A stretch of 64,000 nucleotides of DNA from Cellvibrio zantedeschiae (GTDB lineage Bacteria; Pseudomonadota; Gammaproteobacteria; Pseudomonadales; Cellvibrionaceae): positions 992,001 to 1,056,000 of the forward strand of contig NZ_BMYZ01000001.1 of assembly GCF_014652535.1 (NCBI RefSeq). Reading direction: 5' to 3'. Numbering within the stretch: the stretch's first letter is position 1; each line of letters starts with the position of its first letter. The notes under the pieces were generated by a model that was given only the letters and a program-made list of their open reading frames with translations, was not told the origin of the DNA and searched no databases. Of the stretch, positions 386 to 35,068 are shown piece after piece. A program made the position numbers and the translations under genes.

Positions 386-665
386 TAAAACAAACAGGAT
401 GTTTGTTTTAGTGACGATGCGACATGGATGTCGCACCGGAACGACAGCAAGTTTTCGAAACGCGCACGACTGCATGGATGCAGGAGGTAGAGCAACGCAG
501 GAGCAGTTGCCGGGGATCAGGAGTGAGACGAGTCGCCTTTCTTTTGGTTCCTTTTGTTCATGAAAGCCATCCTTGGCTTTCACCCCGCTGGGGCAGCTTC
601 GCTGTGCAAAATTGCTCTCCTGCAATTTTGTGGACAAGCAACGAAAAGTGACTCGCCAGCAGGCG
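386..665. repeat. Hairpin array with GGA loops between sufB and sufC
   Basis: The 419 bases between sufB and sufC carry a chain of short inverted repeats. On the + strand: 386-410 (perfect 11-bp arms around GGA), 418-435 (7-bp arms around TGGA), 470-483 (CTGCA around TGGA) and 492-510 (GCAAC-GC around AGGA). On the - strand the loops read AGGA at 561-582 (9-bp arms) and AGGAGA at 607-630 (9-bp arms). Smaller hairpins lie at 451-461, 583-593 and 595-603. Flanks near 526-559 and 632-656 are imperfect inverted copies of each other (a GAGTCGCCTTTC-like motif against GAAAAGTGACTCGCC). No ORF here looks genuine. The mosaic looks like an intergenic repeat element that has entered the suf operon. The GGA loops resemble CsrA/RsmA binding hairpins, which is inference. 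Confidence 0.8.
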
Positions 666-19528: not shown

Positions 19529-19571
19529 AGGGGATTTAGAACGAGGTCGGGGTAGTGCCCATGAATACCTT

Positions 19572-19670
19572 GTTCCCTCCGCAGGTCTCAACCTGATCAG
19601 GTTCTACGGATTGGGCCGAACCCATCTCAGCCTCCGTATGTCCATTTACAAGGACACCGAGGCGCTCCGA
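19572..19670 (-). ncRNA. TPP riboswitch (THI element)
   Basis: The minus strand carries the conserved blocks of the thiamine pyrophosphate aptamer in order: GGAGCGCC near 19668, CTGAGATGGG near 19629, GAACCTGATCAGGTT near 19604-19590, and TGCGGAGGGAAC near 19584-19573. It lies between the xseA stop (19719) and the thiO start (19502) and is expected to lower thiOSG expression when TPP is abundant. The conserved sequence match is strong; the mode of control is probably translational. Confidence 0.95.
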
Positions 19671-19718
19671 CAAGAAAGTCGCCAATATACTGAGCTGGGC
19701 GACCTAAAGCAATCTGTC

Positions 19719-34857: not shown

Positions 34858-35068
34858 AGGAACCACTGAAAAATTACCTTGCTTGTCCTGGCTGCGTTAA
34901 ATTCAGATAAAAATGCTCATAAATTGCAGGAGCAATAATTTACACAGTGAAACTGCCCAAATGGCGAACCACATGGATGTTGTGAGTGTTTTACTGCGTG
35001 TAAACTGCGCTTGTTTATCCGAATTTGCCTTGCCAGTTCTACGCCGCAAACATTTTTCAGTAGTTCCT
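34858..35068. mobile_element. MITE-like palindromic element A (adk downstream)
   Basis: A 211-base element with terminal inverted repeats: AAGGAACCACTGAAAAAT at 34857-34874 matches the reverse complement of 35052-35069 in 17 of 18 bases. Inner segments also pair imperfectly (CTGGCTGCG...AAATTCAGATAAA against 35010-35034, and TTTACACAGTGAAAC against 34989-35004). It contains two further GGA hairpins, ATTGC-AGGA-GCAAT (34923-34936) and one with the core ACATGGATGT (34971-34980). TAA flanks both ends (34855-34857, 35069-35071), a possible 3-base target duplication. It lies between adk and its terminator, has no ORF, and is related to element B at 59504. Confidence 0.78.

Follow-up and report, generated by a model that had tools for sequence, protein, structure and literature searches.

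The array of GGA-loop hairpins between sufB and sufC of Cellvibrio zantedeschiae is, in our reading, one copy of a non-coding, non-autonomous, two-domain interspersed element of Gammaproteobacteria and not a dedicated regulator of sufCDSE, an interpretation to which we assign a probability of about 0.7. In the window (the whole stretch of 64,000 nucleotides that was analysed, which opens inside sufB), sufB stops at 323 and the start of sufC lies at 743, and comparison with the rest of the genome confirms, at the level of sequence, that the segment 336-668 between them belongs to a dispersed mosaic repeat, of which it is one copy. Alignment of the copies shows a structured nucleic acid with two domains, a 5' fold of the TwoAYGGAY type and an H-type pseudoknot at the 3' end, and comparison of corresponding loci shows that the sites of the element differ between related species. 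From copy number and these site differences, we infer mobility; the element is probably a selfish repeat of the structured-RNA type that can bind CsrA when transcribed. That TwoAYGGAY is a predicted CsrA binder is already stated in the literature (PMC4333381, in the part available to us); the 3' domain and its recurrence in other genera are new here.

Architecture of the suf copy and its dispersed relatives

On the plus strand, the element extends from about 336, an approximate edge because the 5' end is deduced from a ...CACC... stretch common upstream of many copies, to about 668, where it closes with the GGCGAAA end common to the copies. The 5' domain, module AB (344-470), is delimited by profile matches and by the RF01731 match at 387-443, and consists of two hairpins with GGA loops inside an outer stem, which is the defining arrangement of TwoAYGGAY. 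The outer stems P1 (366-463) pair 366-370 with 459-463 and 374-385 with 445-456; within them lie hairpin A (387-409; loop AGGAX, GGA at 397-399) and hairpin B (411-442; loop ANGGAX, GGA at 426-428). The nested insert that follows, module CD (464-513, plus strand), contains hairpin C (470-483, GGA at 476-478) and the imperfect hairpin D (492-510, GGA at 500-502). The 3' domain opens with S1, the 5' strand of the pseudoknot (TCGCC, 533-537), the pyrimidine linker TTTCTTTTG (538-546), which tests of register and by permutation in other copies predict to be the third strand of a triple helix, and the 5' arm of the pseudoknot hairpin S2 (547-555), with S1 and the arm placed by pair counts in a 41-row alignment. 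Module EF (558-628, minus strand), nested and in this copy reversed, comes next, with hairpin F at 561-582, hairpin E at 607-630 and small hairpins between them. The loop strand GGACA (632-636) and the 3' arm of S2 (639-652), assigned from sequence and the same alignment, lead to a small terminal hairpin, TCGCC-AGCA-GGCGA, with the AAA end (653-668), which is found in other copies too and is terminator-like by pattern only. The suf copy must be considered rearranged, with a broken pseudoknot, because S1, TCGC(C), needs a loop of the GGCGA type and mismatches the GACA of the loop actually present, GGACA, and because EF is reversed.

The sequence-only reading had described six GGA-loop hairpins with mostly perfect arms of 5-11 bp. 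Five of these stand, as perfect stems with loops of 3-6 nt (386-410, 418-435 and 470-483 on the plus strand, 561-582 and 607-630 on the minus strand); the sixth, at 492-510, is present and imperfect (2+5 bp with a bulge). On no single strand do all six hairpins show GGA, and the two minus-strand ones form a separate module, EF.

That reading had proposed searching the genome for further copies and folding them; a DNA search with 330-680 returned 74 matches in the genome of C. zantedeschiae. On stretches fetched from this genome, nhmmer profiles yielded 35 matches for AB, 16 for CD, 23 for EF (several of them standing alone) and 25 for the 3' domain (TL), distributed over 42 clusters of varied order and orientation. 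RF01731 matches 29 places of the same genome, of which 12 pass the cut-off of 43 bits; the suf copy scores 42.4 bits, and the match at C1:2131855 (43.5 bits) belongs to a repeat copy that is 83% identical to the suf copy over 319 query bases.

Modules AB, CD and EF each bear one pair of GGA hairpins. The loops of the two smaller modules are strongly conserved: loop C reads ANGGAT in 14 and loop D GCAGGA in 15 of the 16 CD matches, and GGA in hairpin E and CANGGAYG in hairpin F are each retained in 21 of 23 EF matches. CD and EF occur both alone and nested; in copies C1:865738 and C3:38784, the 3' hairpin has one or the other in its apical loop, and the shorter copy that a relative (G005) carries at the same suf site is without CD and without EF. 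A second EF module of the window, a solitary repeat of two GGA hairpins, was matched by nhmmer at 34921-34988 on the minus strand.

Copies often form inverted, BIME-like pairs a few hundred bases apart (C1:548446-548906, 777004-777450 and 865441-866131, C2:705186-705768, and also in G324, G418 and G214). Many copies in the C. zantedeschiae genome have TGGCACC 5-15 nt upstream and others GCTTTT repeats, possibly the true left end of the element or a preferred target.

Covariation in the two domains

The alignment of 29 AB copies contains 34 consensus pairs, with 98.1% of cells paired and two-sided change in 20 of the 34, a degree of covariation equalled by none of 500 shuffles; slid registers drop to 35-48%. 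Among the individual helices, the outer stems (helices 1 and 2) show two-sided change in 12 of 15 pairs, and the cells of hairpins A (helix 3) and B (helix 4) are paired at 100% and 98.6%, respectively; an extra outer stem surrounds AB in 16 whole elements. Identity reaches 98.3% in the GGA columns, compared with 84.4% in the remaining unpaired columns and 85.9% in the paired ones. Given these near-invariant columns, the two-sided changes and the extent of pairing, stem sequence varies and pairing and loop are kept, just as had been proposed from the hairpins of the suf gap alone: GGA is present in loop B of 29/29 copies and in loop A of 26/29, and the stems vary by paired substitution. We conclude from this alignment that the structure of AB is under selection. 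Paired changes are seen also at sites common to relatives; we do not use these as proof of selection by the host because gene conversion between copies yields the same picture.

The converse pattern, a kept stem with a lost GGA, which had been named as evidence against a conserved loop, is mostly unseen, the exceptions being CGA and AGA loops. Among the 29 copies, loop A is CGA in two and AGA in one, and CGA replaces GGA in the second hairpin of four loci from other genera (L120, L123, L124 and L125). The CGA substitutions in both sets argue against strict dependence on CsrA. ACGAC replaces AGGAX in one hairpin of each of these four loci, and likewise of C. zantedeschiae copies in L008 and L066, with the stem kept.

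As to the strand on which the structure acts, the 34 pairs that are predicted on both strands contain 16 G.U cells against 3 A.C cells; four extra pairs of the minus-strand fold, which hold 36 A.C cells, are evidence of the opposite sign. Mean fold energy does not distinguish the strands (-47.0 vs -46.3, with the plus strand lower in 15 of 29 copies) and was dropped as strand evidence.

Downstream of AB, the order is S1 (e.g. TGTC, TCGC or TGCC), the linker TTTCTTTT and a hairpin of 14 bp, the loop of which opens with the complement of S1 (GACA, GCGA or GGCA). In 41 sequences (16 of the 25 TL matches of the C. zantedeschiae genome, nine with inserts being excluded, 16 loci of the same genus and nine from other genera), 93.9% of cells pair in the pseudoknot, and two-sided change is seen in 14 of its 18 pairs, all four of S1 among them; 36 of 500 shuffles attained the observed value for one of the five measures of the shuffle test, pair types. 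In parallel orientation, the linker is in register with the purine arm: 204 of 232 positions form T.A or C.G, compared with a mean of 183 and a maximum of 197 over 5000 partner permutations, with 130 for the next best parallel register and with 183 for the best antiparallel one.

The same pattern recurs in 34 rows from other genera (27 of them distinct, since a few places are represented twice) that were obtained from 60 loci. Here, the linker C and the arm G shift together (positions 3, 4, 5 and 6), the triple fits sum to 173 against a permuted maximum of 168 (2000 permutations), and S1 of at least 4 bp is found in 24 of the 27 distinct rows against a permuted maximum of 17, two of these S1 matches (L084 and L217) standing off the expected place. 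Both pseudoknot sets were chosen from loci with a recognised 3' hairpin. In 26 of the 60 loci, the 3' domain is interrupted or none is recognisable, so the domain is not universal in TwoAYGGAY. With this reservation, the 3' end of the family bears the signature of a covarying H-type pseudoknot with a predicted major-groove triple helix, which is broken in the suf copy.

H-type pseudoknots with a major-groove triple helix, as in telomerase RNA, are well known. The element resembles them in that stem 1 joins a hairpin loop to upstream sequence and in that a T/C linker and the purine strand of stem 2 run in parallel; it differs in being a bacterial repeat with a pseudoknot predicted from covariation alone, and no functional link is implied. 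An Rfam scan of 20 loci matched only TwoAYGGAY at the element, leaving the 3' domain unmatched; two other weak matches lay elsewhere or far under the cut-off. In searches of an open-licence library, we found no account of the repeat, its 3' domain or its nested modules. Six loci (L085, L087, L126, L130, L131 and L135) contain another sort of TwoAYGGAY, with a long near-perfect outer stem and no recognised 3' pseudoknot, which may be a separate element or an sRNA.

Distribution, turnover and relation to known families

RF01731 was detected in 13 of 57 relatives and, in a survey of the class that scored seven candidates per genome, in 24 of 369 genomes and 22 of 272 genera, often in multiple copies. 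With a tuned model, R1, five of 21 genomes of the genus yielded 33, 15, 13, 12 and 1 copies, and none were found in the rest. Occupancy of individual sites is equally patchy. The sufB-sufC gap contains the element in two of 26 relatives' loci and lacks it in 24; in the relative with a SufC that is 100% identical (G017), the gap is short and looks like a deletion remnant, and in relatives this gap also hosts other repeats. At eight other sites, AB was found in four of 29 corresponding places among the matches listed, the flank comparison covering 8 of 10 sites and 30 of 45 matches. At one corresponding site, AB is inverted and its stems are entirely different; the GGA loops are unchanged. Target-site duplications cannot be read because the corresponding sites are too diverged or are filled by other repeats.

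Certain intergenic places seem to gather unrelated repeats: at element sites L182, L188, L193 and L206, relatives often have either a different long inverted repeat, TAGCCCGTATGGAG...CATACGGGCTAC, or a repeat of the form CCCCGC..GCGAGGATGACG. An origin from phages was rejected, phage records containing no match to the element; among plasmids, seven records matched, with the CD module alone. CD-like stretches of 37 bases lie under annotated pglX in plasmids NZ_CP093250.1 and NZ_CP133280.1 (Moellerella and Salmonella), and large replicons of Pseudoalteromonas have 47 bases of CD in unannotated places.

The closest known relative is TwoAYGGAY itself (RF01731, clan CL00106), with its two hairpins with A-Y-GGA-Y loops in an outer stem, to which copies from other genera score up to 65.5 bits. 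The Rfam matches end before the pseudoknot/triplex domain of the element, and dispersal, insertion polymorphism and nested CD and EF are not mentioned in the available portions of the TwoAYGGAY papers, one of which lists Gammaproteobacteria among its taxa and describes it as 'not cis-regulatory' (PMC2864571). The element is like REP, BIME and MITE sequences in being short, non-coding, intergenic and multi-copy, often in inverted pairs and near gene ends; it is unlike them in its conserved, covarying two-domain fold with GGA loops, and neither a matching transposase nor a clear target duplication was found. Intrastrand triplex DNA repeats (TM-ECO, ITxF; PMC4666352) are similarly multi-copy and intergenic, with a hairpin plus third strand and no strand bias, whereas those that the accessible text details are purine motifs rich in G/C and lack a pseudoknot and GGA hairpins.

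If the present interpretation is true, gammaproteobacterial TwoAYGGAY would, in many of its copies, be one end of a larger dispersed structured element, as opposed to a cis-regulatory RNA that stands by itself (RF01731 is of the Rfam type Cis-reg). The element would then be a natural source of CsrA sites strewn over mRNAs and intergenic regions, a pseudoknot with a predicted triple helix that is rare in bacteria and spans several genera, and a simple test case for repeats that rewire or buffer a global RNA-binding regulator.

Mobility, CsrA and the suf genes

The scenario that we favor can be outlined as follows. The 5' domain presents two GGA loops about 29 nt apart, the 3' domain is a pseudoknot of the H type for which a pyrimidine-purine triple helix is predicted, and CD and EF are small repeats of GGA-hairpin pairs nested inside the element. 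The whole would spread, or would have spread, selfishly, moved in trans by an enzyme; upon transcription of the GGA strand, which here would occur within the suf mRNA, the AB hairpins could hold a CsrA dimer, and the pseudoknot of intact copies may shield the 3' end of the RNA. A search for Y1 transposases revealed no mobilising enzyme, and inspection of the whole-element alignment by eye found no matching termini. Mobilisation of the RAYT/REP kind was rejected, the sole Y1_Tnp gene having, by eye, a different flanking palindrome. That gene, which is RAYT-like and lies at L119 (C4:101399-101692), comes with its own palindrome, GTACGATTAGCG..., which is unrelated to the element.

Could the hairpins be signals at the level of DNA, that is, single-stranded DNA folded for a transposase or recombinase, such that the GGA loops and the pseudoknot serve mobility and not CsrA? 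Insertion polymorphism, modular rearrangement with reversed modules included, and the fact that single-strand folds and triple helices form in DNA too (as in the triplex repeats described in the available part of PMC4666352) all fit this possibility, which we nevertheless judge unlikely: no candidate enzyme emerged from the Y1 transposase search, and in three unrelated modules the loops fit the CsrA optimum beyond GGA, as ANGGAX on a stem.

The sequence-only reading had proposed CsrA-like sites, and this proposal is supported. The genome encodes two CsrA genes, and the loops take the form of an ANGGAX hexaloop or AGGAX on a stem, of which, in the accessible part of PMC4005645, the former is the high-affinity CsrA form and the latter, without the N, occurs in RsmZ. 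The GGA pairs 397/426 of AB, 29 nt apart, and 476/500 of CD lie within the 10-63 nt that a CsrA dimer bridges according to the portion of PMC7652899 that we could consult. Binding of CsrA to these predicted sites is therefore likely. Co-occurrence adds weak evidence: CsrA is present in 24 of the 24 RF01731-positive genomes against 313 of 369 overall, that is, in 85% of the sample. One might tentatively imagine mobile elements that live by RNA, with a CsrA-docking domain, a triple-helix pseudoknot against 3' exonucleases and unrelated repeats of CsrA-site pairs riding inside; CsrA would be exploited, e.g. for RNA stability or the timing of mobilisation, so that host physiology would gate the spread.

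An alternative in which the host benefits is a CsrA sponge, whereby transcripts of the many copies titrate CsrA like CsrB or RsmZ and are kept for that reason. GGA-loop pairs in all three modules, their high-affinity form and the spacing in AB speak for it, as do the earlier proposal of TwoAYGGAY as a CsrA-binding or CsrA-sequestering RNA (PMC4333381, again in its available part) and the lack of over-cut-off matches to RsmY and RsmZ in the C. zantedeschiae genome (none at all for RsmZ; the single RsmY match, 25.4 bits against a cut-off of 57, falls at the end of a gene, with a T-run and a hairpin rich in GC, and was not accepted). The element shares with RsmZ, RsmY and CsrB the several GGA hairpins, including the ANGGAX hexaloop and the AGGAX form; it differs from them in its dispersal in many copies, its occurrence in either orientation and its pseudoknot domain. 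Moreover, no sigma-70-like promoter was found in 250-760 of the suf copy (two terminator-like sites were, against 0.8 in shuffles), copies are equally sense and antisense, so that about half of them are read on the wrong strand, and copy number within the genus ranges from 33 to none found. A titrating role is possible; as the main explanation of the element, we consider it doubtful.

The 42 clusters lie between codirectional genes in 30 cases, convergent genes in 11 and divergent genes in one, a placement expected for repeats kept out of promoters, and AB beside codirectional genes is oriented 13:13 sense to antisense (a hand count on longest-ORF gene calls in the C. zantedeschiae genome that excludes nine of the 35 AB matches, eight convergent and one unclear); in relatives, with some sites shared, the ratio leans to sense, 10:5. 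In copy number and placement, the suggestion that this might be a selfish intergenic repeat was right.

The accompanying suggestion that the element ties sufCDSE to CsrA fared poorly. Under such cis control, CsrA bound between sufB and sufC would alter the translation of sufC, its decay or Rho-dependent polarity. AB and CD do have their GGA strand in the suf mRNA and G005 has its shorter copy at the same place, but 24 of the 26 relatives' loci are devoid of the element and G017 has an apparent remnant only, orientation across copies is unbiased, the GGA sites are far upstream of sufC (CD ends at 513), the same intergenic place holds other repeats in relatives, and the pseudoknot of the suf copy is broken and its EF reversed. 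Presence/absence and orientation rule out cis regulation of suf as the main reading, and we regard it as improbable in any form. Control of suf by the element is not supported, an insertion is more likely than a switch for the suf genes, and nothing suggests selection for CsrA binding on the suf mRNA; CsrA may still bind this mRNA because the AB hairpins of the copy are intact and on the mRNA strand.

The notion of chance or artefact, with random GGA falling within random palindromes, could appeal to the shortness of the word GGA and the commonness of palindromic repeats, and is refuted to the point of being negligible by the five GGA hairpins in 386-640, where 2000 dinucleotide shuffles gave 0.097 on average and two at most, by the lack of any window with five hairpins among 1250 sliding windows of 255 nt across the 64 kb, and by covariation in three independent parts. 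The five sliding windows with three or four hairpins all lie on the array itself. Elsewhere in the window, 19557-19679 on the minus strand encodes a TPP riboswitch (69.7 bits, cut-off 54.3).
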